64,000 nt of DNA from an uncultured Clostridia bacterium (GCA_947631965.1 CANRNL010000001.1:1-64000); one strand, 5' to 3'; shown: positions 4,443 through 38,855, counted from the first letter of the stretch. Translations and numbers: made by a program. The notes: generated by a model from the sequence alone, not told the origin.

Positions 4443-5432
4443 CTATATTCCACCCGCTGATTTATATAATCTGTTTCTTACCGCCGCCCAGTCGTCGCCG
4501 TCGGGTATCTGCGGCGCAAATATCACGTCGACTCCGAGCTTGTCCAACTCACGAAGTCCTTTGAACAGCCGCCTCGCCGCGTCCTGCGGCGTACTTCCGA
4601 GACTTACGAGCGGCATACCCTCAAATTCAGCCGTGTGGCTCTCAAACGCCATAACTCCGACGTTCTCTCCGCGCACCTCCGACGGGTCGCCGTATATTAC
4701 CACCCTTGCGCGGGGCGCGTAATGTCGGTATTTCATACCCGGAGACTTTGGGGCTTCGCTCTCCGAAAGTCCGCGCCCGCTCCTGACCTCGCCTATTACG
4801 GCTTCTATACGGCTCGCGCTGATTCCGCCCGGACGAAGTATCGTCGGCACGTCCGCGCTCATATCTATAACGGTGGACTCCACGCCCACGCCGCAGTCGC
4901 CGCCGCAAAGGATAGCGTCGGCGCGGCCGTCCATATCATCAATGACGTGCGCCGCCGTGGTGGGGCTGGGTCTGCCCGAAATGTTCGCGCTCGGCGCGGC
5001 GACGGGTACGCCCGCAAGACGAATCAGCTCCCGCGCAAGCGGTTCGGACGGCATCCTTATACCCACCGTATCAAGTCCCGCGGTCACAACGTCGGGTACC
5101 ACGCTCTTGCGTTTTAAAATAATCGTCAGCGGTCCGCTCCAAAATTCATTCATCAAAAGACGCGCGGCGGGCGGTATTTCCTCCGCCAGACGCTCGACCT
5201 CTTCAATGTCGGCTATATGCACAATTAAAGGGTTGTCGGACGGACGACCCTTTGCCTTAAAAATTCTTTTTACCGCCGATTCGGAAAGCGCGTTTGCACC
5301 CAAGCCGTAGACTGTCTCGGTGGGAAACGCCACCGTGCCGCCGTTTTTTAAAATCTCCGCCGCCTCCGAAACCTCGGACGCGCTTAAAATTCTCGTGTTG
5401 ACCCTCTCAGGCTCAATTTTTCCGCACTCCAT
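4443..5432 (-). CDS. L-threonylcarbamoyladenylate synthase (Sua5/YwlC type)
   Basis: GGTVAFPTETVYGLGANA, KGRPSDNPLIVHI; C-terminal Sua5 domain. Confidence 0.93.
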   Translation of the reverse strand: MECGKIEPERVNTRILSASEVSEAAEILKNGGTVAFPTETVYGLGANALSESAVKRIFKAKGRPSDNPLIVHIADIEEVERLAEEIPPAARLLMNEFWSGPLTIILKRKSVVPDVVTAGLDTVGIRMPSEPLARELIRLAGVPVAAPSANISGRPSPTTAAHVIDDMDGRADAILCGGDCGVGVESTVIDMSADVPTILRPGGISASRIEAVIGEVRSGRGLSESEAPKSPGMKYRHYAPRARVVIYGDPSEVRGENVGVMAFESHTAEFEGMPLVSLGSTPQDAARRLFKGLRELDKLGVDVIFAPQIPDGDDWAAVRNRLYKSAGGI

Positions 5433-5436
5433 AAAA

Positions 5437-6507
5437 TCACGCCTCGTTTTTCAGCTTTTCACTCTGGTCGGAGGCTATGAGCGCGTCTATTATCTCGTCC
5501 AAATCTCCGTTCATTATCTGCTCTATTTTATACAGGGTCAGTCCTATTCTGTGGTCGGTAACTCTACCCTGCGGATAGTTGTACGTCCTTATTCTCTCGC
5601 TTCGGTCGCCCGTTCCGACCTGACTTTTTCTGTCCGCCGCAACAGCCGCCGCCTGCTCCTCCTCCTTCATCTGATAAAGCCTCGAACGGAGCATCTTCAT
5701 CGCCGACTCGCGGTTCTTGTGCTGAGAACGTTCGTCCTGACAGGTTATCACAAGTCCGGTCGGGATATGGGTTATTCGTATAGCCGACTCGGTTTTGTTA
5801 ACGTGCTGTCCGCCCGCGCCCGAACTGCGGTATGTGTCTATCTGCAAATCGTCGGGATTTATCTCCACGTCAACTTCCTCCGCTTCGGGCATAATCGCCA
5901 CGGTTACGGTCGAGGTGTGTATCCTTCCGCCCGACTCGGTTTCGGGGATTCTCTGAACGCGGTGAACTCCGCTCTCAAATTTAAGCCTGCTGTACGCGCC
6001 GGCTCCCGTTATCTGAAAGGATATTTCCTTGTATCCGCCTATACCCGTTTCGTTGGACGACAAGACCTCGGTTTTCCACCGTTTCGACTCCGCATACATA
6101 GAATACATACGGAATAAGTCCGCCGCGAAAAGAGCCGCCTCGTCGCCGCCCGCGCCGCCGCGTATCTCAACGATTACGTTCTTGTCATCGTTCGGGTCCT
6201 TGGGGAGCAACAAAATTTTAAGCTCCTCCGAAATTCGCTCGATGTTCTCCTTCGACGACTTTATCTCGTCGTCAAGCATTTCGCGAAACTCCTTTTCAAG
6301 ACCGCCCTCGCGGAGCATTTCCGTTGCCTCGTCAAGCGTGTCTTTATTTTGCTTGTATTCACGGTATTTTTCGACGATAGGCGTTATGTCGGAATGTTCC
6401 TTGCAGAGCTTCTGCCAAACGTCGTGGTCGGCAATTACCTCAGGGTCGCTTATACGGCGGCTCAGCTCCTCATAACGTTCCTCGACAAACGATAACTTTT
6501 CAAACAT
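5437..6507 (-). CDS. prfA: Peptide chain release factor 1
   Basis: [38 protein letters not shown]; 356 aa; paralogous to the adjacent prfB. Confidence 0.95.
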
Positions 6508-7620
6508 TACAACTCTCCTCTTGATTTAGCCTTCAGATACGCGTTGATAAAACCGTCCAAATCTCCGTCCATAACCGCTGTTATGTTTCCGGTTTCATAG
6601 TTTGTGCGGTGGTCCTTTACCATTGTATACGGATGGAAAACATATGAGCGTATCTGACTGCCCCAGCCTATCTCCATCTGTACTCCCTGAATATCCTCTA
6701 TCTTCTCTTTCTGCTCACGCTCCGCAATTTCGGCAAGCTTTGACAAAAGCACGCGCATAGCCATATCGCGGTTCTTGTGCTGCGAGCGCTCGTTCTGACA
6801 GGTGACGACTATGCCGGTCGGCAAGTGGGTTATTCGTATAGCCGACTCGGTTTTGTTGACGTGCTGTCCGCCCGCGCCCGAACTGCGGTAGGTGTCCACC
6901 CTTATATCTTCGGGGCGAATGTTTACTTCAACGTCCTCGCTCAGCACAGGCGTGACCTCAAGCGACGCAAACGAGGTATGCCGTCTGCCCGCCGCGTCAA
7001 ACGGAGAAATACGCACCAGGCGGTGAACTCCTTTTTCCGCCTTGGCGTAGCCGTATGCGTTAAGACCGTCTATTTCAAATGTGACGCTTTTAACGCCCGC
7101 TTCTTCACCCGCGAGATAGTCGATTGTTTCTATTTTAAAGCCGCGTCTTTCAGCCCACCTCGTATACATACGAAGCAGCATCTCGCACCAGTCCTGTGCC
7201 TCTGTACCGCCCGCGCCGGCATGGAGAGTCAAAATCGCGTTGTTTGCGTCGTACTGACCCGAAAGAAGCGTTTCGAGCTTCATATCTTCAAGCGTTTTCT
7301 CCACCGCGTCTACGCTCTCGGTTATCTCGCCGAGCAAATCGTCCTCGTCCTCCTCGATTGCGAGAGCGACAAGCGTTTTAGCGTCCTCCCACTCGGAGTA
7401 CAGAGCGTCAAACCGCTCAATCTTGTCTTTCAGTCCTTTTATACGCTGAAGCGTCGCGCCCGCGCTGTTCATATCATTGTAAAAATCGGGCTCGGCGGTC
7501 TTTTTTTCAAGCTCCTCAATTTCGGTTTTCGTCTTTTCTATGTTAAAGTGAATCCCTCAATTCGGTAATGCTGTCTTTCATACCGTCCAGCTTCAGACGA
7601 TACTCGTCAAACTCTAACAT
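6507..7620 (-). CDS. prfB: Peptide chain release factor 2, with a +1 programmed frameshift
   Basis: Zero frame from ATG 7620: [25 protein letters not shown] then TAA (7543-7545). +1 frame continues [38 protein letters not shown]... to 6507. Site TTG AGG GAT TCA CTT TAA C has SD-like AGGG at the canonical spacing. Confidence 0.93.
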
Positions 7621-7659
7621 CAAATCACTCCTCTTTCACTCTTATCGGTTTTCTCTTTT

Positions 7660-10434
7660 CTACGCTTCGTCCTTGCCCAGACAGCAGTTTTTATATTTCT
7701 TTCCGCTTCCGCAGGGACACGGGTCGTTTCTGCCGACCTTTGCCTTTTTGACAATCGGCTTTTTCTTTACCGTGCCGTCGCCGCCCGCGCTCTCGCTCGT
7801 CGGCTTAGCCACCTGAACGCGCTGTACCTGAGCCTGAGGAACAACGTGAAACAGATACATCACGGTTTCCTCTTTTATCGAGTCAATCATTTCCTCGAAC
7901 ATATCCATAGCTTCAAATTTATACTCAACCACCGGGTCGCGCTGTGCATAAGCACGCAGGCTTATTCCCTGGCGCAGCTGCTCCATATTGTCGATGTGGT
8001 CCATCCACTTGCGGTCAACAACCTGCAAAAGCACGACGCGCTCCACCTCGCGCATACGCTTGCCGCCGCTTTCGTCCTCGCCGAAGAGCGCCTCGCGCTC
8101 ATCATACTTCGCCGCCGCATAATCGGAGATTTCGTCCGCCAGACTCTCGATTGTCATATGGTCAATGTCGTACTCGTTAAACACGAGCGCGCCCTCGTCG
8201 ACCGCGCCGAACTCCGCCGCCACACTGTCGCGCAGGGCGTTCATATCCCACTCCTCGGCGTGCGGCTTGTCGCCCGCAATTCTTCTGACGATTTCAAGAG
8301 CCGTGCTTTTTATCATAGAAAGGATGGTTTCCTTCAAATCCTCGTTTTCAAGCACCTGATTTCTCTGCTTGTATATAATCTCTCTCTGCTGGTTGTTAAC
8401 GTCGTCATACTGCAAAACGTGGCGTCTGATGTCAAAGTTTCTGCCCTCAACGCGCGCCTGTGCGGTTTCGAGCGTGTTCGATACCATTTTGCTCTCGATT
8501 GCTTCTCCATCGTCAAAGCCTACCATATCCATTATGCGTGAAATTTTATCCGACGCGAAAAGACGCATCAAATCGTCCTCGAGCGACAGGAAAAATCTCG
8601 TCTTGCCTACGTCTCCCTGACGGCCGGCACGGCCTCGGAGCTGGTTGTCTATACGTCTGCTCTCGTGGCGCTCGGTGCCTATTATATAAAGGCCGCCCGC
8701 CTCAAGCACCTCCGCCTGTTCGGGAACAAGTTCCTTTTTAAATCCGTCCTCCAACTCCGAAAACTTTGCGCGCGCCTCCAAAATTTCGGGATCGTCTGTT
8801 TCCGCAAAGCCCATCGCCTGATTTATCATCGCGCCGTCGTATCCGAGGCGCTCCATTTCGCGTCTTGCAAGGAACTCGGAGTTTCCGCCCAGCACAATAT
8901 CGGTTCCGCGTCCCGCCATATTGGTGGCTATCGTAACCGCGCCCCGCTGACCCGCCTGCGCGACTATCTCCGCTTCTTTTTCGTGGAACTTCGCGTTTAA
9001 GACGTTGTGCTTAATTCCCTTTTTCCTAAGCAGTGAGCTTAAAAGCTCGGACTTTTCTATCGAAACGGTGCCGATAAGGACCGGCTGGCCTTTCTCGTGC
9101 GCCTTTATAATTTCATCTATTACCGCATTGAATTTCTCTTTTTCGGTCTTGTAAATCAAATCGGGCAAATCCTGACGCACAAGAGGCTTGTTCGTGGGAA
9201 TAACGATTACGTCAAGCGAGTAAATCTCCTGGAATTCTTCCTCCTCGGTCTGAGCGGTACCCGTCATACCCGACAGCTTGTTATAAAGACGGAAATAATT
9301 CTGAAACGTAATGGTCGCAAGCGTCTTGCTCTCGTTTTCGACCTTAACGCCTTCTTTGGCTTCGATAGCCTGATGCAGTCCGTCGCTGTAACGTCTGCCG
9401 AACATCAGACGACCCGTAAACTCGTCTACTATGATAACCTGTCCGTCGCGTACAACGTAGTCCTTGTCCCGTTTCATAACGCCGTTCGCCTTTATCGCCT
9501 GATTTATATGGTGCGAAAGCGTCATATTGTCGGGGTCGGTGAGGTTTTCAACGCCGAACGCCTGCTCCGCCTTTTTAACGCCCGACGGCGTAAGGGTGGC
9601 GGTGTGCGCCTTTTCGTCAACAACGTAGTCAACGTCGGTATAAACCTCCTCCGCCTCCTGCTTTGCGTCGGTTTCGACCACCTTCCTGAAACGCAGACCC
9701 TTTGCAAACTTGTCCGCCGTTTCGTAGAGGTTTGTGGACTTGTCGCCCATACCCGAAATTATAAGCGGTGTTCGCGCCTCATCTATCAGAATACTGTCCA
9801 CCTCGTCCACTATCGCGTAAGCGTGACCGCGCTGAACCTTGTTTTCCTTGTAAATTACCATATTGTCACGCAGATAGTCAAAGCCCATCTCGTTGTTCGT
9901 TCCGTAGGTGATGTCCGCGGCATATGCCTCGCGGCGCGCCTTGTTGTCCATATCGTGAACTATAAGTCCCACAGTAAGTCCGAGGAAGTTATACAGCTTG
10001 CCCATCCACTCGCTGTCGCGCTTCGCAAGGTAATCGTTGACGGTTACGATATGCACACCCTCGCCCGTGAGCGCGTTTAAGTACGCGGGAAGCGTTGCGA
10101 CAAGCGTCTTTCCTTCACCGGTTTTCATCTCCGAAATTCTGCCCTGATGCAAAACTATTCCGCCCAATACCTGAACCGGAAAGTGCTTCATTCCAAGCAC
10201 TCTCATTCCCGCCTCACGCACTACGGCAAACGCTTCAGGCAAAATATCGTCGAGCGTTTCTCCGTTTTTAAGCCGCTCCTTAAATTCGGGAGTTTTAGCA
10301 CGAAGCTCCGCGTCGCTCAGCGCGGCTGTTTTCTCATCGAGCGCCAAAACGCTCTCCATTATCGGCGTTATGCGTTTTAACTCTCTGTCGCTGTAGGTGC
10401 CGATAACCTTTTCAATCATTCCTTTTATTCCCAT
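7660..10434 (-). CDS. secA: Protein translocase subunit SecA (start [15 protein letters not shown])
   Basis: [37 protein letters not shown]-terminal [22 protein letters not shown]. The ORF track start at 10500 is probably too long. Confidence 0.96.
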
Positions 10435-10588
10435 AGCAATCATTCCTTTGCTTTTCTCTCGGCTCGAATCGGCAGAAATCTCCGCCGCCAAGCCATACAT
10501 TGTTTATTTTATCATTTTTTTATATATTATGCAATACCTAAATTGTCGATAAATACGCGCGCCGAAAAAATATCCTCGGTCTTAGGGC

Positions 10589-10631
10589 AAACAACAGCCC
10601 CGCGCGGGCGCGGGGCTGTTGTTTGTTTTTT
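10589..10631. terminator. Intrinsic terminator-like hairpin between spoIIID and secA
   Basis: aaacaacagccccgcgc gg gcgcggggctgttgttt plus T-run. Confidence 0.6.
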
Positions 10632-10640
10632 GTTATGTGC

Positions 10641-10892
10641 TTACGCGCGGCGCGCGTATTTTTCCTTGGTTGCCATACCTCCGCGTATGTGACGCTCCTG
10701 CTTGTTCTCCAAAAGTACCTCGGCGACCGCTCCGGCAAGGTTTTTGTTTATGGTTTCAAGTCTCTCGGTTATGTCTTTATGTACGGTAGACTTGCTTATA
10801 CCGAACTTCTTCGCGGCATCCCTCACAGTACATCTATTTTCGACTATGTAGTTTGCAAGCTCTATTGTTCTCTCTTCTATATAGCTTTTCAC
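10641..10892 (-). CDS. spoIIID: Sporulation transcriptional regulator SpoIIID
   Basis: MKSYIEERTIELANYIVENRCTVRDAAKKFGISKSTVHKDITERL... Confidence 0.95.
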   Translation of the reverse strand: MKSYIEERTIELANYIVENRCTVRDAAKKFGISKSTVHKDITERLETINKNLAGAVAEVLLENKQERHIRGGMATKEKYARRA

Positions 10893-30017: not shown

Positions 30018-31319
30018 ATGGATGTTTTCAACATAACTGATTTTGGCGCAAAAAGCGGCGGAGTTTATAAAAATACGGCGGAGATTGCTGCGGCGATAGA
30101 CGCGGCTTCGGAGTGCGGAGGCACGGTAGTAATACCGCGCGGAATCTGGTTCACCGGACCCATAACGATGAAAAGCGGCGTAACCCTCCACGCCGAGGAC
30201 GGCGCGATAGTCCGTTTCAGCAGCGACGCGGACGACTATCCGCTTGTCAAGACGGACTGGGAAGGCTCGCGCGCGTTCCGCTGCACCTCGCCGATAAACG
30301 GACGCGGTCTGAGCGATATAGCGATAACCGGCGGCGGCATATTCGACGGCGAGGGCGGCGCGTGGCGGCCTTTAAAGCAGATGAAAGTTTCCGAAAAGCA
30401 GTGGGAAAAAACCGTAGCGAGCGGCGGCTGTGTAAAGGACAGCCGCGAGGGCGGCGTATGGTGGCCTGACGAGTACGCGGCGGACGGCACGAAAGTTATG
30501 AAGGGAATCGATATAGATTCCGCCGACCCGAACGACTACATAAAATACAAGCGATTTTTCAGACCCACCCTGCTCCAGCTTCGCGAGTGCAAGGGCGTTA
30601 CTTTAAGCGGCGCGACTTTCCAAAACTCCCCCGCGTGGTGCCTGCACCTGTTTATGTGCGAGGACGTAAAGGTGTCCGACATTTGCGTGCGTAACCCGTG
30701 GTTCTCGCAAAACGGCGACGGAATTGACATAGAGTGCTGCAAAAACGTACTGATTGAAAATTCGAGCTTCGACGTGGGCGACGACGCAATCTGTATGAAG
30801 TCGGGCAAGGACGAGTACGGCAGACGGCTCGCCGCCCCGACCGAGAACGTGGAAATTAAAAACTGTATCGTATATCACGGACACGGCGGTTTTGTCGTCG
30901 GAAGCGAAATGTCGGGAGGCGTGCGCGACGTGCGTCTGTACGGCTGCTCGTTTATCGGCACCGACGTGGGTCTGCGCTTTAAAAGCTGCCGCGGCAGAGG
31001 CGGAGTTGTGGAAAACATCAGCATATCAGGAGTAAATATGACCGACATCAAAAACGAGGCGATAATATTCACCACCGCATACGACGCGAACGGCACCCCC
31101 GACGACAGCACCGAGCGAAGCGAAAAAACGCCCGAATTTAAAAATATAAAAATCGAGGACGTGGTATGCGACGGCTGTAAGACCCCGATTTCGATTGCTG
31201 GACTTCCCGAACTGCCCATCCACGACGTTGAGCTTCGCAACATCACCATAAGGAGCGCAGGTCAAATCGAAACCTCAAACTGCGAAAACCTCACTCTCGA
31301 AAACGTCGAGATAATATAG
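30018..31319 (+). CDS. GH28 family polygalacturonase-like glycosidase
   Basis: NITDFGAKSGGVYKNTAEIAAAIDAASECGGTVVIPRG; GDGIDIECCKNVLIENSSFDVGDDAICMKSG; GHGGFVVGSE. Confidence 0.93.
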   Translation: MDVFNITDFGAKSGGVYKNTAEIAAAIDAASECGGTVVIPRGIWFTGPITMKSGVTLHAEDGAIVRFSSDADDYPLVKTDWEGSRAFRCTSPINGRGLSDIAITGGGIFDGEGGAWRPLKQMKVSEKQWEKTVASGGCVKDSREGGVWWPDEYAADGTKVMKGIDIDSADPNDYIKYKRFFRPTLLQLRECKGVTLSGATFQNSPAWCLHLFMCEDVKVSDICVRNPWFSQNGDGIDIECCKNVLIENSSFDVGDDAICMKSGKDEYGRRLAAPTENVEIKNCIVYHGHGGFVVGSEMSGGVRDVRLYGCSFIGTDVGLRFKSCRGRGGVVENISISGVNMTDIKNEAIIFTTAYDANGTPDDSTERSEKTPEFKNIKIEDVVCDGCKTPISIAGLPELPIHDVELRNITIRSAGQIETSNCENLTLENVEII

Positions 31320-31321
31320 TC

Positions 31322-31551
31322 AGTGTAAAATTATAGTTGGCAAAATAAAGAGAATAGTCCAAAGCTGCACGAAGATTACTATGTGTATGAAGCACCGACA
31401 AATGGGGTGGTCGGGCGCAGATGCAAATAATCTTGCAAAAGTGCTGTGTCGGAGGGAAAACAAGAAACTACAGACGACATACCGCAAGACATTTAAGATG
31501 GCATTTATTGAACAAGAACTGCTTGCCGTCAGATACAGCATCGGCAGATAG
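31322..31551 (+). pseudogene. Remnant of a transposase C-terminus (UPF0236/ISLre2-like, tentative)
   Basis: Open frame without a proper start, up to TAG at 31549: CKIIVGKIKRIVQSCTKITMCMKHRQMGWSGADANNLAKVLCRRENKKLQTTYRKTFKMAFIEQELLAVRYSIGR. Resembles the MGWS..GA..(L/M)AK(V/I)L C-terminal region. Confidence 0.4.
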
Positions 31552-31613
31552 GGATTTCGGACTACATAGCAAGCGCACGAAACCATGCGTAAGCTCAGCA
31601 AGGAGATGAGAAG

Positions 31614-33056
31614 GTGAGCGATTCAAGCATAAAAAAAGATGTTTTCCTTGATCTCAGCATTGAGAATGACGGTTTTGATTTCTCTACATCAATTACTGAT
31701 GCGATGGCAAAATCGGAAGCGGAACTTGTAGTCTTGAATGAAACGGTGGATTCAATTAAAGGACTGAAACCGGAATGTGATAAGCTGGACTATATTCTAG
31801 CTACAAGTTCCGGCGCCTTGTGCGGCATTATAGACGTCTTTTTAGTGGGTAAACCCGGCGAGTCTCCTCTTGGTAATATTACGGATAACTGGTTTGTAGC
31901 CAGAACGATGGACTTTGCAAGCCTGTGCCATCCGGATAAGAAGAAGTTTAACAGTCTCGATTCCGCACTGAGATTTTTGGAACAAAAGTTTAAAATTCCT
32001 TACGACCAGACCGGACTGGGTGATGCCGGAAGAGCTATTTTTGATTTGACCGCTAAAAACCATCATTTTAAATCCCTTGCACATAATCCGACTTTGCCGG
32101 GACTATTCTTCTCGATACTTGATCAGTTCAGCAACACATCACACTTTGTTACAGATGGTCAGCTTATTTCCTTACAGCAGGCAGATGAAAAGTGGGAGCT
32201 GCAAGGCGGCAATATTCCGAGTAAATTATTTTGCGGATTTGTAAACTGGATAGGTCATCTGATTTCAGACGTATCCGGTTCATCGTCCGGTGCGGCTAAA
32301 GGAAATCGCGGCACAGGACTTCCATCTCCGTTGTGGACGTGGATCAATGATATTATTGCAATTAAATCCAAATTGGGACTTAGCACAACTGAGACGAATA
32401 AGGCTATTAACGAGCTGGCTATGAACATTTTTGAAAAGGGCTATGACATCCGTTTCCAGACAACTCAAGCCATACCTGTATTTTTGAACGAGCTTCTCGT
32501 TAGACTTATTTACTCAATCAGGCGTCTGTTCAGGTATTTTTCTGAAACCCCCAAGGCGGAGCGCTCCCCTGCACTTATGTGGAAGAAGTGTGAGCCGTTT
32601 TCAAATGCCACGGTTAAGCGAATGTTGACTGTTGCGCATGGTACATTCTGTCTGATTGATGTTGGCGATGCGGTGGGTAGATCGTTTGTAGCCGGTGGAG
32701 GAACTTTTAATGTTTTAGAGTTTGTTTTACGAATTAATATTGTTGGTGTTGGTCGGTTTGCCATATCACTCTACGGTGAAGCCAGAAGAGCGATTTCTTA
32801 TAGCCATGCCAAGAGAGAATCTGATTTTGCTTCAAGAGAAATCATTATTATTAAAAATTATATGGAGGGTTTGAAAATTTTGGCCCGACAGTACGACGAC
32901 AGCCAATTGCTGATGTTTGTCAGTGATTTTGAAAAAAGCGATGCTTATGTAGAGGCTTTTAAAAAGTCGGCGGTTTTAGCAAAACAACGTAACGTTCCGA
33001 CACATAAAATTTTGAAAAATAAGTCGGACATCGACAAATACTTTAGGAGGAAATGA
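31614..33056 (+). CDS. Cassette gene A: uncharacterised 480-aa protein
   Basis: GTG start with SD aaggagatgagaag; cassette-type codon usage. Motifs HHFKSLAHNPTLPGLFFSILDQFSNTSHFV and LISDVSGSSSGAAKGNRGTGLPSPLW; hydrophobic central region. Confidence 0.85.
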   Translation: MSDSSIKKDVFLDLSIENDGFDFSTSITDAMAKSEAELVVLNETVDSIKGLKPECDKLDYILATSSGALCGIIDVFLVGKPGESPLGNITDNWFVARTMDFASLCHPDKKKFNSLDSALRFLEQKFKIPYDQTGLGDAGRAIFDLTAKNHHFKSLAHNPTLPGLFFSILDQFSNTSHFVTDGQLISLQQADEKWELQGGNIPSKLFCGFVNWIGHLISDVSGSSSGAAKGNRGTGLPSPLWTWINDIIAIKSKLGLSTTETNKAINELAMNIFEKGYDIRFQTTQAIPVFLNELLVRLIYSIRRLFRYFSETPKAERSPALMWKKCEPFSNATVKRMLTVAHGTFCLIDVGDAVGRSFVAGGGTFNVLEFVLRINIVGVGRFAISLYGEARRAISYSHAKRESDFASREIIIIKNYMEGLKILARQYDDSQLLMFVSDFEKSDAYVEAFKKSAVLAKQRNVPTHKILKNKSDIDKYFRRK

Positions 33057-33057
33057 C

Positions 33058-34170
33058 ATGTCAAAGAAATTATCAAAACTTCAAACGGCGCAACAAAAAG
33101 CGGAAGCTGCTGCAAAAAAAACAAATCAAAAAATTAATGAACTCGGTAATCATACCAATGCATTGTACACTTCTTTAACAACAATACAGTCTTTGTTTGA
33201 TCGCATTCGTAATATGCCCGAAGAAAATAGGCTGAAGTATGAAAAGCTGAAGAACATCAGAATAAACTGGAAACAGCAGGTTGAGAAAATTGAAATAGAA
33301 TACAAAAAGACTGAGGTAAAAACTGCCGGCAAAAGTGCCGTCGGGGTTGGCATGGGTGTTACTGTTGTCACATTGGGACCCACAGCTGCTATGGGTATTG
33401 CAACCACGTTTGGTGTAGCTTCTACCGGAACAGCAATATCTGCTTTAAGCGGTGCAGCAGCTACAAATGCAGCTCTGGCTTGGTTAGGCGGAGGCGCTTT
33501 GGCCGCCGGCGGCGGCGGAATGGCGGCAGGCAACGCACTTTTGGCACTTGCGGGTCCTATTGGCTGGACGATTGCCGGTGTTTCTCTTTTGACAAGTTGT
33601 CTGATGTTTTTCAAGACCAAAAGCGCCAAGCAACGTCTTGAAAATATATATACGCTTATTAGTGACCGTGATATCAAATCATATGAGCTGGCTATTGTTG
33701 AATTAAGCGAGCGAATTACAAGAATTATTGATGAATCCGGAAAATTAAATGAAGCCATTGCTAAGATTGAAACATTCGGAACAGACTACACTAAAATGAC
33801 TGAAGCTCAACAGTATGAATTGGGTGCATATGTCAACTTGATGGAAGCCTCCACCATGTTGCTTGTTAATCCTATCTTGGGTCTACAGCCTAAATATTCA
33901 GAGCAAGATTTTGAAAATCTGTGTGCAACTGAAGAGTCCTCGTACTACAAGCTCTATTTCGAAGCTCATAAAACGATGGTCATTTCTATGGCTAATCTAC
34001 TGTATAAAATCAATCTCGACGATAAGGACAAAAAGTTGCTGGCTAAGTCTTTGAAGAAAAACAAAGAGTTTCTATCTTCTGTTCAGATGACAAAAACGGA
34101 GTTTGATGCATATGATATCTCTATGATAGAGAGAGCGTTAAATCACAAATATAACTACAGTACCTACTAA
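33058..34170 (+). CDS. Cassette gene B: coiled-coil protein with a glycine-rich membrane segment
   Basis: SD AGGAGGAAATGACATG adjoining the stop of gene A; long Gly/Ala hydrophobic stretch AVGVGMGVTVVTLGPTAAMGIATTFGV...AAGGGGMAAGNALLALAGPIGWTIAG flanked by charged helices. Confidence 0.85.
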   Translation: MSKKLSKLQTAQQKAEAAAKKTNQKINELGNHTNALYTSLTTIQSLFDRIRNMPEENRLKYEKLKNIRINWKQQVEKIEIEYKKTEVKTAGKSAVGVGMGVTVVTLGPTAAMGIATTFGVASTGTAISALSGAAATNAALAWLGGGALAAGGGGMAAGNALLALAGPIGWTIAGVSLLTSCLMFFKTKSAKQRLENIYTLISDRDIKSYELAIVELSERITRIIDESGKLNEAIAKIETFGTDYTKMTEAQQYELGAYVNLMEASTMLLVNPILGLQPKYSEQDFENLCATEESSYYKLYFEAHKTMVISMANLLYKINLDDKDKKLLAKSLKKNKEFLSSVQMTKTEFDAYDISMIERALNHKYNYSTY

Positions 34171-34176
34171 GAAGCG

Positions 34177-34215
34177 CCTTACTGCCGGTGTTGAACCGGC
34201 AGTAAGGAATTTTTT
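34177..34215 (+). terminator. Intrinsic terminator after cassette genes A-B
   Basis: ccttactgccggt gttga accggcagtaagg aatttttt. Confidence 0.85.
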
Positions 34216-34491
34216 CGTCTATGGTATTCGTAGCAATTATGAGCGTGGCTGCTTTTTGCTATACCCCTGTTTGGCAACTCACTGTCAGTATTGTTTCAAT
34301 ACTGTTTTATTGAAAGCTGCCCAGCGGTGGATTTTAATATGTTTCCCATTTCGTATTTAATCAAAGCAGTACGTTACCCGCTTTGCTTTCACCAAGAAAA
34401 AACGAAACTAAAAAGAACGCTAATTATTAGTTGAGAACATTAAACGTGTCTCCAACCTTACATATGTCAATTTTTTGAAAAAATTGTTGAA

Positions 34492-34520
34492 AAGTTAATA
34501 TCTTGGTGCTATAATTATCA
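34492..34520 (+). promoter_or_regulatory. Promoter of the second cassette unit (genes C-D-E)
   Basis: TTGAAA-17 nt (agttaatatcttggtgc)-TATAAT. Confidence 0.6.
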
Positions 34521-34613
34521 TAGTAAGTTGTATTCGCGCAGGAAATGAGCGTTTACCAATGAAAATAGAATAATTTGCTGAAATTCAGCGCTATGGTGAG
34601 GAGGATAATATAT

Positions 34614-35531
34614 ATGGCGAAAACCATCAAATTCAACCTCATTTGTGACGAAAAACCCATTCGCACTATTGAGGACTTACAGAATAATTTCTCCATTGAG
34701 GATATTCTGGCTTATTTCAACAATAAGCTGCTCCACCGATGGCTTAGTGTACGAGGATATGAATCGGAACTGGAAAAAGTATCTGCCATTACCAGCAGTA
34801 ATCCGATAGAGGTCATTAAGGAACTGATCCGCATTTTTAATGTTGTTGCTGATAAGGAAAAGGTAGAAGAAAGTATTTATATGCTCAAGTATCTGGATGA
34901 GCGCAAGAATCTTTTTGCTATCTATGAGCATGAGAACTATAAGACGAAAAGCATCATTGATGACTATATATCCGGGTATAGTCAACTTGTAGACGGAATC
35001 CTTAAAAATCCGAGAAATGCAGCTGTAATTAAGGCAAATATCGCTGAAATTGTGTCTAATTATGCTTGGGTATTGAAATTAGACCATCGACATCTGTTTT
35101 ATATTTTGTATGAAAAATCCGCCTTAGCTATTATGTGTCTTCTTATGAATGAGCATTCTCGAAAATATTATCTTCCTGTGGAGATTACCGACAAAGACGG
35201 TACTGTTATCTTAGATATTACAAAGAACCCTGACAAAAAAAGTATGTTTAATCATATATGTCATATGATAGAAAGCAGGGATTTTAAAACTGCTTTAAAT
35301 GGAAATCTCCTTTCGTTTTCCGGCATGACAGATGGCTATTGGAAAGATCTTGAGCCAAAAGGTAAGCGCTATATGATTATAAGAATAGAGAACGGCGATT
35401 ATGTTCGTTCTGCGGGACATTCCGGTGGTGATTTGTCCGTCATCGATATTCTTAATAAATTTGTCATTGTTGATGGCATTGACTACAAGAGTAATTCCGA
35501 TACTCATGAATTGCTTTACATGGAGGTATAA
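34614..35531 (+). CDS. Cassette gene C: uncharacterised protein
   Basis: Start MAKTIKFNLICDEKPIRTIEDLQNNFSIEDILAYFNNKLLHRWLSVRGYESEL after SD GAGGAGG. The ORF-track start at 34575 is upstream of the SD. Confidence 0.85.
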   Translation: MAKTIKFNLICDEKPIRTIEDLQNNFSIEDILAYFNNKLLHRWLSVRGYESELEKVSAITSSNPIEVIKELIRIFNVVADKEKVEESIYMLKYLDERKNLFAIYEHENYKTKSIIDDYISGYSQLVDGILKNPRNAAVIKANIAEIVSNYAWVLKLDHRHLFYILYEKSALAIMCLLMNEHSRKYYLPVEITDKDGTVILDITKNPDKKSMFNHICHMIESRDFKTALNGNLLSFSGMTDGYWKDLEPKGKRYMIIRIENGDYVRSAGHSGGDLSVIDILNKFVIVDGIDYKSNSDTHELLYMEV

Positions 35532-35533
35532 CG

Positions 35534-37063
35534 GTGAAACGAAGCACAGTAAATATATTGGCTTCCTACATTGATGCGTTGCATCCGATTATTTACATAA
35601 ATCATTTCGATTTCAAGGTGATTGATGATGCAATTGCACAAGTCGGGGAAGCTGTCAAATACATTGAATTTAATAACGCATTAGGTCTGGTAGATTTCAA
35701 AACCAAAAGTCCTATGCAGGAATGCGATTTGGAGCAGTTCCTAAGGCTTACGATGGATGACGGTTTTGAAAATGAAACATTTTTGATTCTCAAGGATATT
35801 CACGGGGAACTGAATAATCCCAAGATCATTGCTCTTTTGAAAAAGATTGCGGAAAACACTCTCTATAACGACGATTACAGCGCAACTATTTTTATCATTT
35901 CCGAAATTACAGTAATTCCGCGTGAGCTGGAAAACTACATCACCGTGTTTGATATTCCTCTGCCGACTATCAACGAGATTCACACCCTTATTCGTGAGTT
36001 TATCGATGACTTGGAGATCGCGGTTGAAGAAGATACCATCAATGACATTGCCCTGTCCTTTAAGGGGTTGAATGAATTCCAGATTAAGCAGATTCTTAAT
36101 CTTGCTTATCAGGACGGCGGCTGTATAGACAAAGAAGACAAACTCCTTATTCTCAAGGAAAAAGAGCAGTTTATCAAGAAATCCGGCATGCTGGAGATTG
36201 TTGCCTTTTCGGAAACGATTGATGACATTGGCGGTCTTGAGAACTTGAAAGAATGGCTTGGCAGAAAGGCAAAAGTCTTTGCAAATTTGGACAAAGCCAT
36301 TAAGTTTGGAGTAGATATTCCCAAGGGCATTATGATTATAGGTATGCCGGGATGTGGTAAAAGTTTGACCGCAAAAGCTACTGCCAGTCTGTTTGAAATT
36401 CCCCTTGTTCGACTTGATGTCGGTCGTTTGTTGGGCAAATATGTTGGCGAATCTGAGGAAAATATGCGTAAGGCATTGAAACTGTCCGAAGCAATCAGCC
36501 CTTGTGTTCTGTGGATTGATGAAATCGAAAAAGCGTTCGCCGGAGTCGGCGGAAACGGTGGAGGAAACGAGGTTACAACCCGCCTCTTTGGTCAATTCCT
36601 TACTTGGATGCAGGAAAAGGAGAACACCGTCTTTATCGTGGCAACCGCTAATGATATTTCCAAAATACCGCCTGAATTTCTGCGAAAGGGCAGATTCGAC
36701 GAACTGTTTTTTGTTGATCTTCCGAATGGAGAGGAACGCAGGAAAATTTTGGAAATCCACTTGAAAAAACGCGGAAAATGGAATAAATCCATTGACTCTA
36801 TTGCATTGATTAGGGGAACCGAAGGTTTTAATGGTGCTGATTTGGAGGCGGTTGTCAAAGATACTATTGAGATGGCATTCATTGACGGCAAGACCAACAT
36901 CTCAACTGAAGATTTGATTCGTTCCGTTAGGGATACCAAGTCCATTTCCAGTACGATGAAAGATAAAATCACGCAGATAAAGGAGACCATCAGCAAAATC
37001 GATATTAAACCTGCAAGTATTACATTGAATAATTACGATGTAATAGGTGTTTTTGACGTTTAA
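35534..37063 (+). CDS. Cassette gene D: Ycf46-like AAA+ ATPase
   Basis: GGLENLKEWLGRKAKVF, Walker A GMPGCGKSLTAKA, RLDVGRLLGKYVGESEENMRKAL, Walker B VLWIDEIEKAF, IVATANDISKIPPEFLRKGRFDELFFVDLP. GTG start after ggaggtataac. Confidence 0.93.
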   Translation: MKRSTVNILASYIDALHPIIYINHFDFKVIDDAIAQVGEAVKYIEFNNALGLVDFKTKSPMQECDLEQFLRLTMDDGFENETFLILKDIHGELNNPKIIALLKKIAENTLYNDDYSATIFIISEITVIPRELENYITVFDIPLPTINEIHTLIREFIDDLEIAVEEDTINDIALSFKGLNEFQIKQILNLAYQDGGCIDKEDKLLILKEKEQFIKKSGMLEIVAFSETIDDIGGLENLKEWLGRKAKVFANLDKAIKFGVDIPKGIMIIGMPGCGKSLTAKATASLFEIPLVRLDVGRLLGKYVGESEENMRKALKLSEAISPCVLWIDEIEKAFAGVGGNGGGNEVTTRLFGQFLTWMQEKENTVFIVATANDISKIPPEFLRKGRFDELFFVDLPNGEERRKILEIHLKKRGKWNKSIDSIALIRGTEGFNGADLEAVVKDTIEMAFIDGKTNISTEDLIRSVRDTKSISSTMKDKITQIKETISKIDIKPASITLNNYDVIGVFDV

Positions 37064-37073
37064 ATAAAATGGG

Positions 37074-38585
37074 GTGAACATAATGACAGATAAAGAGAAT
37101 TATACAATTCTTGCCATTGATGAGGAGTTGGCTCCACATATCTCCGTGGATGAAGCACAGAAGCTGAAACCAATCCAGAAAAAGTTTATGGAAAGCTATC
37201 TGGGACGCAAAGACAGTATACCTGTTGAGGATTGGCTACGTGCTGAAATGGCAGAGAATCTTCCGAACTGCAGTTCGGAAGAAATCGCTCAAATGAGCGA
37301 TGAAATCATTACTACGCTCAAGGTGCAGGAAGAAAAGAAAGCCTCCCTGGAAAAGGCTATTGCTAACGGTAGGAGTAAAGAATCCTGGTTTGCCGATGAA
37401 ACAAAAACGGCAACATCTTACCTGAGCGCACAGGAAGCGTCCAAACATTTACAAAGACTGGATGATGCGCTGAATAAAGCGAATGAGTCTTTATACCGCA
37501 CTATTCACACGCAAGCTGGTACAATCAGCCAAAATTCTCATCTGGATGGATTTATCGCAGAGCAATATCATGCTCAGACGTTTAACTTGAATGCAGAAGC
37601 AACCGGGAGTCCTTATCGTGCTAAGGTACTCGAACCTACGGGCAATGGATATGCCAAGAATTCCGTAGATATTGTAATTGTTGATGAAAGCGGAAAGGTT
37701 GTTAGCCGCTATCAATCCAAATACTGCAAGGATGCGGAAGCTACTGTAAAGGCGTTTGAACACGGCGATTATCGTGGTCAGCAGAAACTTGTTCCGAAAG
37801 GTCAGGAGCAGGATATTCCCCAAAAGGCAACGACCGTCCTTGAAGCGCCTGATGGTACAACCAGCACACCGCTTTCCAAAGGACAAGCAAAGGAATTGCA
37901 GGAAGAAGCACAAAGCGATAAATGGAACGACTTGAATTGGAACGAATACAAGGTCAAAGATCTTGCTATTGGTATTGGTAAAAAAGCGGGGCAATCTGCC
38001 CTCATGGGTGCCGCTATTGGTGTTGGTTTTGATATTGCACAAAAAGTCTGGAATGGCGAAGAAATCAAAGGAGAAGAGCTGGTTGAAACTGCCATTGTAT
38101 CCGGTGCCGACTTTGGTATAAAAGCGGCGGCATCAGGTGCATTAAAGGTTGGTGTAGAAAAAGGTATTGTTAAAGCCATCCCGAAAGGCACTCCCGCCGG
38201 AACGATTGCAAATATCGCCCATGTTGCCATTGAAAATGTCAAAACCGTTTGTAAAATGGCAACCGGCAAATCAACTATAAAAGAAGGATTTGAGAAGATG
38301 GAGCAGACCACGGTGGCTACTGTCGCAGGAATTGCCGCAAGCACCAAAGGTGCCGCTATTGGTCGCGTCATCGGTACGGTGTTTGGTCCTGCCGGTACAT
38401 TTGTTGGTGAACTTGTCGGAGGCGCGATTGGTTATATGTGTGGCTCTAAGGTGGGTGAAACCGTGGTCAAAGGCGTACAGAAAATCTGTAAAAAAGCCAA
38501 AGAAGTGATTAAGAGTGTTGGCAGAACCGTGTCCAATAAAGTACATAATTTCTGTAGCAGAATAAAAAGTTTGTTTAGTTGGTAA
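37074..38585 (+). CDS. Cassette gene E: putative PD-(D/E)XK-like nuclease domain with glycine-zipper C-terminal domain
   Basis: HLDGFIAEQYHAQTFNLNAEATGSPYRAKVLEPTGNGYAKNSVDIVIVDESGKVVSRYQSKY (E...D...QxK pattern), then GAAIGVGFDIA, GAAIGRVIGTVFGPAGTFVGELVGGAIGYMCGSKVGE. Confidence 0.8.
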   Translation: MNIMTDKENYTILAIDEELAPHISVDEAQKLKPIQKKFMESYLGRKDSIPVEDWLRAEMAENLPNCSSEEIAQMSDEIITTLKVQEEKKASLEKAIANGRSKESWFADETKTATSYLSAQEASKHLQRLDDALNKANESLYRTIHTQAGTISQNSHLDGFIAEQYHAQTFNLNAEATGSPYRAKVLEPTGNGYAKNSVDIVIVDESGKVVSRYQSKYCKDAEATVKAFEHGDYRGQQKLVPKGQEQDIPQKATTVLEAPDGTTSTPLSKGQAKELQEEAQSDKWNDLNWNEYKVKDLAIGIGKKAGQSALMGAAIGVGFDIAQKVWNGEEIKGEELVETAIVSGADFGIKAAASGALKVGVEKGIVKAIPKGTPAGTIANIAHVAIENVKTVCKMATGKSTIKEGFEKMEQTTVATVAGIAASTKGAAIGRVIGTVFGPAGTFVGELVGGAIGYMCGSKVGETVVKGVQKICKKAKEVIKSVGRTVSNKVHNFCSRIKSLFSW

Positions 38586-38599
38586 TGTAGGTAACAATG

Positions 38600-38638
38600 G
38601 TCCCTCAGAAGGCTTATCCTGATGAGGGACAAATTTTT
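38600..38638 (+). terminator. Intrinsic terminator after the cassette
   Basis: gtccctca...tgagggac aaattttt. Confidence 0.75.
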
Positions 38639-38675
38639 GGATTATATATCGAATCCTAATTTTAAAACAATTGTT

Positions 38676-38855
38676 ATGAGAAAATTTAAAATTCCGGTCG
38701 CACCTCATTCCACAAACAAATGTATTCGGTTTCCTGATGATGTGATAGAGGCGGTTGAAAACGCGATAAAGGGCGTGGATTGCACCTTTTCCGCCTTTGT
38801 GGTGGAGGCGGTGCGCGTGGCTCTTGAAAATTTAGAGGATGATTCCGAAGAATAG
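38676..38855 (+). CDS. Small RHH-like protein (YlcI/YnfO-like, tentative)
   Basis: MRKFKIPVAPHSTNKCIRFPDDVIEAVENAIKGVDCTFSAFVVEAVRVALENLEDD. The ORF-track start lies inside the upstream terminator. Confidence 0.65.
   Translation: MRKFKIPVAPHSTNKCIRFPDDVIEAVENAIKGVDCTFSAFVVEAVRVALENLEDDSEE

Follow-up and report, generated by a model that had tools for sequence, protein, structure and literature searches.

An inserted segment at a variable site

The window considered here is the whole stretch of 64,000 nucleotides that we analysed from an uncultured Clostridia bacterium (GCA_947631965.1 CANRNL010000001.1:1-64000). Between its GH28 gene and its RHH/Sir2 genes lies an inserted segment (31319..38671), in which we confirmed all five co-oriented ORFs of a preliminary description of this DNA, each in its place; they are called A to E here and are listed with their surrounding signals in Table 1.

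Table 1. Genes and signals of the inserted segment, in window positions.
Feature	Position	Strand	Description	Basis
Left edge, non-coding	31320..31613	+		Stops in all three forward frames
Gene A	31614..33056	+	480 aa, GTG start, BnzB-family	PADLOC BnzB, E 1.7e-98
Gene B	33058..34170	+	370 aa, PDC-M09A-family, coiled coil and Gly/Ala-rich hydrophobic segment	PADLOC, composition
A+B terminator	34177..34207	+	13-pair stem followed by a T-run	dG -26.4 kcal/mol with flanks
C-D-E promoter-like site	34487..34515	+	TTGAAA-17-TATAAT, TG extended	Consensus scan, 11/12
Gene C	34614..35531	+	305 aa, conserved N-domain of ~126 aa, helical middle, beta-rich tail	Kept beside D-E
Gene D	35534..37063	+	509 aa, Cdc48-like AAA+ ATPase, one intact ATPase domain	Pfam AAA, 2e-30
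Gene E	37083..38585	+	500 aa, helical N-terminus, PD-QxK core at ~140-262, glycine-zipper tail	
C-D-E terminator-like hairpin and T-run	38600..38638	+	Hairpin 38600-38630, then TTTTT	RNAfold dG -18.9

The borders of the segment emerge from an alignment with G001, a genome of the same genus, which matches the left flank at 93% as far as the GH28 stop (31318), matches again at 89.5% from 38672 onwards, and has 4.2 kb of unrelated DNA at the position of the insert. Matching flanks around a differing middle mean that the segment is a replacement at a variable site; the backbone includes the small RHH gene (ATG at 38676). The accessory, horizontally moved nature and the defence-like content proposed earlier are supported. 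At the same site, contig 4 of G001 (L190, ~5636-9838) holds other cargo, encoding a 435-aa protein, a 148-aa protein and a membrane-like protein of 568 aa, and this difference marks the GH28-Sir2 interval as a variable spot. No target-site duplication of at least 8 bases was found at the insert ends.

The region is rich in AT. Its five genes have GC contents of 0.36-0.45, below the 0.508 of the 35 other long ORFs of the window, and their GC3 (0.38-0.45) likewise lies below that of those ORFs (0.596+/-0.071; z -2.1 to -3.1), which bears out the AT-richer DNA and deviant codon habits described before. The two terminators and the promoter-like site before C likewise uphold the division into two terminator-bounded units. 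As a class, promoter-like sites are not enriched (18 against 18.9+/-4.0 in shuffles), and the one at 34487-34515 is notable for its strength and position alone. A transposase-like remnant had also been placed at the left edge. We rejected this candidate: stops interrupt every forward frame of 31320-31613, no second copy exists in the genome, a search of 40 relatives gave only a 24-base match, and the longest peptide of the stretch matched nothing on plasmids.

A and B, a relative of Bunzi and PDC-M09

Gene A matches the BnzB model PDLC03834 over residues 34-399, and its C-terminal end (residues 415-477) gives a weak match to PDC-M09B (2.7e-4), the remainder being BnzB. Gene B matches the PADLOC model of PDC-M09A (PDLC04406, E 1e-70); its Gly/Ala-rich hydrophobic segment, already noted in the preliminary description, is seen in the composition at ~residues 88-192. 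Profile searches with PADLOC and Pfam gave no match of B to BnzA or to a TerB Pfam model.

Bunzi, as reported by Millman et al. 2022, is said to consist of BnzA and BnzB. A TerB domain forms part of this system (PMC10952713). The pair in the window is like Bunzi in that A is a full BnzB-family protein, and differs from it in the partner, which is a PDC-M09A-type protein of 370 aa with no TerB domain found, the BnzA model having a length of 544. On a Vibrio plasmid, a BnzB relative adjoins a 562-aa protein with a Gly/Ala-rich segment of its own, likely BnzA by its position and length, so that B and this likely BnzA both carry a long hydrophobic segment of the kind. The likeness to PDC-M09 lies in B and in the weakly matching C-terminus of A, whereas the main part of A is BnzB rather than PDC-M09B. 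With A mainly BnzB and B PDC-M09A, two catalogued systems are mixed in the pair, and this hybrid falls outside strict membership of either, since one defining partner is absent from each. A+B is a variant of catalogued defence families, and it looks like a TerB-less relative of Bunzi in which a shorter M09A protein replaces the TerB-bearing BnzA.

Relatives of A are present in 17 of the 388 genomes of the class, the genome of the window included, and we inspected 12 A loci from other Clostridia genomes among these. Separate A and B genes are close neighbours in six of the 12 (L055-L060), a single ORF matches both in four (L063-L066), and B was undetectable in the other two (L061, L062). None of the 12 has C, D or E. 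Lactiplantibacillus plasmids encode a protein 83.8% identical to A, and those of L. plantarum carry A+B without C-D-E, one base separating the two genes as it does in the window. At the DNA level, the similarity to the L. plantarum plasmid (80.7%, window 31621-34188) runs from just after the A start codon into the stem of the A+B terminator.

On the minus strand of another locus (L033, G237 contig 58, 9881-13558), a 727-aa match to PDC-M09A (2.5e-21) adjoins a distant E relative of 494 aa; PDC-M09A-type and E-type proteins thus also meet in another arrangement.

Genes C and D

Gene C matched no family in Pfam or PADLOC. Its AF2 model is confident (pLDDT 88.9), and Foldseek returned weak, partial matches to cyclic-nucleotide-binding (CNBD) and cupin folds (best E 0.009), which we take as a lead and not as a claim. 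The N-domain of ~126 residues is common to the C-type genes and the tails differ. The C-type protein preceding D in L105 has a beta-propeller-like tail, and in L124 (5894-8299) a C-type protein directly after D-E ends in an NAD-dependent DNA ligase (1dgs, 4e-23). Two or three C-type genes are present in 12 loci. C is a candidate sensor or adaptor with an exchangeable tail.

Gene D is an AAA+ ATPase, as the preliminary description had it, and its nearest solved structures are p97/Cdc48. The Walker A and B, sensor and arginine-finger residues are invariant in 71/71 sequences, and the N-terminal half of D contains no Walker A. We also considered the IetAS system. D matches IetA across the AAA+ domain (PADLOC 9.3e-29), but the match covers this domain only and scores 88 bits against an NCBIfam cut-off of 510, and no IetS protease is encoded in the operon. 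An identity resting on the AAA+ domain, with no protease in the unit, was rejected.

Gene E, a nuclease-like core with a glycine-zipper tail

We moved the start of E from GTG 37074 to ATG 37083, because the latter has the better-spaced GGGGTG. All 52 of 52 E proteins share L154-D-G, A159-E160, D196 and Q211-x-K213 without variation, and glycine-zipper Pfam matches are found in 29/52, in line with the PD-(D/E)XK-type site and glycine-zipper tail read earlier from the sequence. Along the tail, Kyte-Doolittle averages stay at or below 1.6, the value above which a transmembrane helix is usually called. In the AF2 model (pLDDT mostly 80-93), the core shows the expected order, helix, strand, strand, strand, helix, strand. 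Foldseek with the full E model gave no significant match, a restriction-endonuclease-like structure ranking 27th (E 3.6). Since the full-length fold search was not significant, motif and topology are the basis on which E is assigned as a nuclease.

EcoKMrr, MspJI and the Type ISP enzymes have active sites of the PD-QxK form (PMC12707154, PMC3874165). E resembles these Mrr-type enzymes in its E160 ... D196-X14-QxK arrangement, comparable to the D-X12-QxK of Pam7902I, in which D and K are essential and Q is not (PMC8281217). It departs from them in being fused to a glycine-zipper tail, in showing no DNA-recognition domain, and in lacking a sequence-profile match to any nuclease family.

An alternative, which we regard as unlikely, is that E is a catalytically dead nucleic-acid binder and membrane pore former, D loading the pore and no DNA being cut. 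The homologous E has been described as carrying an inactivated PD-(D/E)XK fold and a glycine zipper like that of bacteriocins (PMC11090510), and the acidic residue of the canonical (D/E)xK is indeed a Q in E. However, the four residues E160, D196, Q211 and K213 are kept across phyla, which argues for activity of E, and QxK sites are catalytic in Mrr-type enzymes, one of which does not even depend on its Q. The DNA ligase tail on a C-type protein beside E also hints at DNA work. We thus prefer to read E as a putative active nuclease.

The C-D-E operon across phyla

We searched one genome per species in 85,462 species for relatives of E, which gave 112 relatives, of which 79 distinct loci were kept. 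After removal of duplicates and addition of loci from earlier searches, 55 E loci had enough flank for inspection. D lies beside E in 54 of these 55, a gene with the C domain is also present in 49, and a WYL regulator in 28. According to record titles, the loci span Bacillota, Bacteroidota, Spirochaetota, Synergistota, Campylobacterota and Pseudomonadota, many of them being MAGs for which single assignments may err. Within the 388 genomes of the class, the distribution is patchy and horizontal (a strong E match in five), and the C-D-E DNA of the window is 80.7% identical to contigs of Candidatus Scybalocola, an Oscillospiraceae and Candidatus Mediterraneibacter (L067, L068, L075).

The WYL family is co-localised with phage defence (PMC9122601), and the neighbours of C-D-E include McrBC (L008), WYL with a reverse transcriptase (L012), dynamins with HerA (L027), and BREX/CoCoNuT. 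Among 140 sampled neighbours, 213 PADLOC families were matched at 1e-10, compared with 38 in 140 control genes taken at evenly spaced places in four genomes; families and not genes were counted, and the figures are only indicative. By association with WYL regulators, defence neighbours and PADLOC families, C-D-E probably acts in defence against viruses.

Alternatively, C-D-E could be an inter-bacterial or stress-response module in which E and C are toxins or clients that D delivers or refolds, a reading we hold to be improbable. A Cdc48-like ATPase would suit such a role, and the variable tails and tandem copies of C recall polymorphic cassettes; yet the defence-type neighbours, the WYL regulators in about half of the loci and the patchy, horizontal distribution speak against it, and no immunity gene is evident.

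Several further loci were observed. In L012 (G110, 4889-10717), an uncharacterised gene run and a defence-type reverse transcriptase (PADLOC RT_II-A, 6.3e-51) adjoin C-D-E. Several Helicobacter species have C-D-E-type loci (L111, L114, L116, L118-L120), with D of 398-618 aa and some C genes split or duplicated. In L018, L020, L024 and similar loci, an upstream gene of ~200-270 aa precedes proteins of ~470-500 aa that weakly resemble the E core, and L018 and L024 have no D gene near. These distant E relatives may belong to a wider E superfamily that has other partners. With C as the query, viral contigs yielded nothing. Phage relatives of D are AAA+ proteins of ~33-36% identity from Streptococcus satellite, Agrobacterium, Rhizobium and Mycobacterium phages, and the one phage neighbourhood inspected, that of Streptococcus satellite Javan368, contains no match to C or E.

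Relation to Type III-A CoCoNuT operons

In an extended Type III-A CoCoNuT operon, a SpoVK/Cdc48-like AAA+ adjoins a glycine-zipper protein whose PD-(D/E)XK fold was called 'inactivated' and whose zipper was described as bacteriocin-like; the authors suggested that extensions of this kind might exist as stand-alone cassettes (Bell et al., 2024, PMC11090510). D and E are homologous to this pair, the Phytobacter protein sharing 38% identity over 97% of E. Our Phytobacter and E. coli matches correspond to that CoCoNuT arrangement and have the gene order VWA-E-D-CARF-VWA-PP2C-kinase. The window differs from it in that D-E stands with C, in the order C-D-E rather than E-D, and in the length of D (509 against 715 aa). 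CoCoNuT core, TerY-P triad and CARF genes are absent among the ORFs of the insert and its flanks.

The preliminary description had treated the gene set as a candidate undescribed system. This does not hold for A+B, as both families are in PADLOC, and holds in part for D-E, which was noted in the CoCoNuT study (PMC11090510); we found no publication naming C-D-E in the open-access literature, and the operon is under-described. Our comparisons support the stand-alone idea for D-E, extend it by the C gene and the WYL regulator, and call the inactivation into question.

Two modules rather than one system

The insert consists of two independent modules, A+B and C-D-E, rather than one five-gene system. 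Among the 388 genomes, A and a strong E match meet in that of the window only, and across the 55 full-flank E loci and the 12 A loci, A+B accompanies C-D-E in the window and L080 only. The nearest DNA relatives also differ, being a Lactiplantibacillus plasmid for A+B and gut Clostridia contigs for C-D-E, each at ~81%, which suggests that the two are of different origin. Of the co-occurrence expected for homologues of A-E, that of C, D and E was found, and that of A+B with C-D-E proved rare.

The earlier proposal of joint action of A-E, in which D would be the remodeller or sensor and B and E the effectors, draws on their adjacency, co-orientation and similar GC3, on an A-x-B run that follows C-D-E in L080 and on B-family genes near C-D-E in L072, L096 and L105, but we consider it very improbable and reject it in view of the strong terminator between the units, the promoter before C, the unrelated nearest relatives, the separation of the units in nearly all genomes and the lack of C, D and E from the 12 A loci. 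Co-location in L080, L072, L096 and L105 is what defence-gene clustering would give, and the two modules may occasionally cooperate.

Proposed functions and significance

Our best explanation of the whole, and one that we find somewhat probable, is a small defence island of two modules: a TerB-less relative of Bunzi, and C-D-E as an ATPase-controlled, membrane-directed nuclease. In the first, A would most likely sense infection, and B would permeabilise or gate the membrane through its Gly/Ala-rich, probably membrane-active segment. In the second, the conserved N-domain of C would dock on the apparatus while its exchangeable tail senses a cue, and D, as a Cdc48-like AAA+, would hold or remodel E. 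The glycine-zipper tail would bring the Mrr-type PD-QxK nuclease to the membrane, where E may cleave DNA, either invading DNA at entry or that of the host as abortive infection.

For C-D-E taken by itself, we tentatively propose, with slightly less than even confidence, a stand-alone, cross-phylum anti-phage system absent from PADLOC. Here the Cdc48-like AAA+ would control a Mrr-type nuclease that is active and inserts its tail into the membrane, and the trigger would be set by interchangeable C proteins, which sometimes occur in tandem and each join a conserved docking domain to a sensor or enzyme tail. Type III-A CoCoNuT operons would have taken up the D-E core.

A supposed five-gene system thus gives way to two testable modules. 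Since BnzB-family proteins are found with two different types of partner, Bunzi may be able to do without its TerB half. What had been described as an extension of CoCoNuT operons becomes, with C-D-E, a three-gene unit of wide distribution, and the invariant QxK site reduces the choice between a dead and a live nuclease to a question that a single mutation could answer. To learn what such systems sense, the variable C tails, among them a DNA ligase, would offer natural probes.
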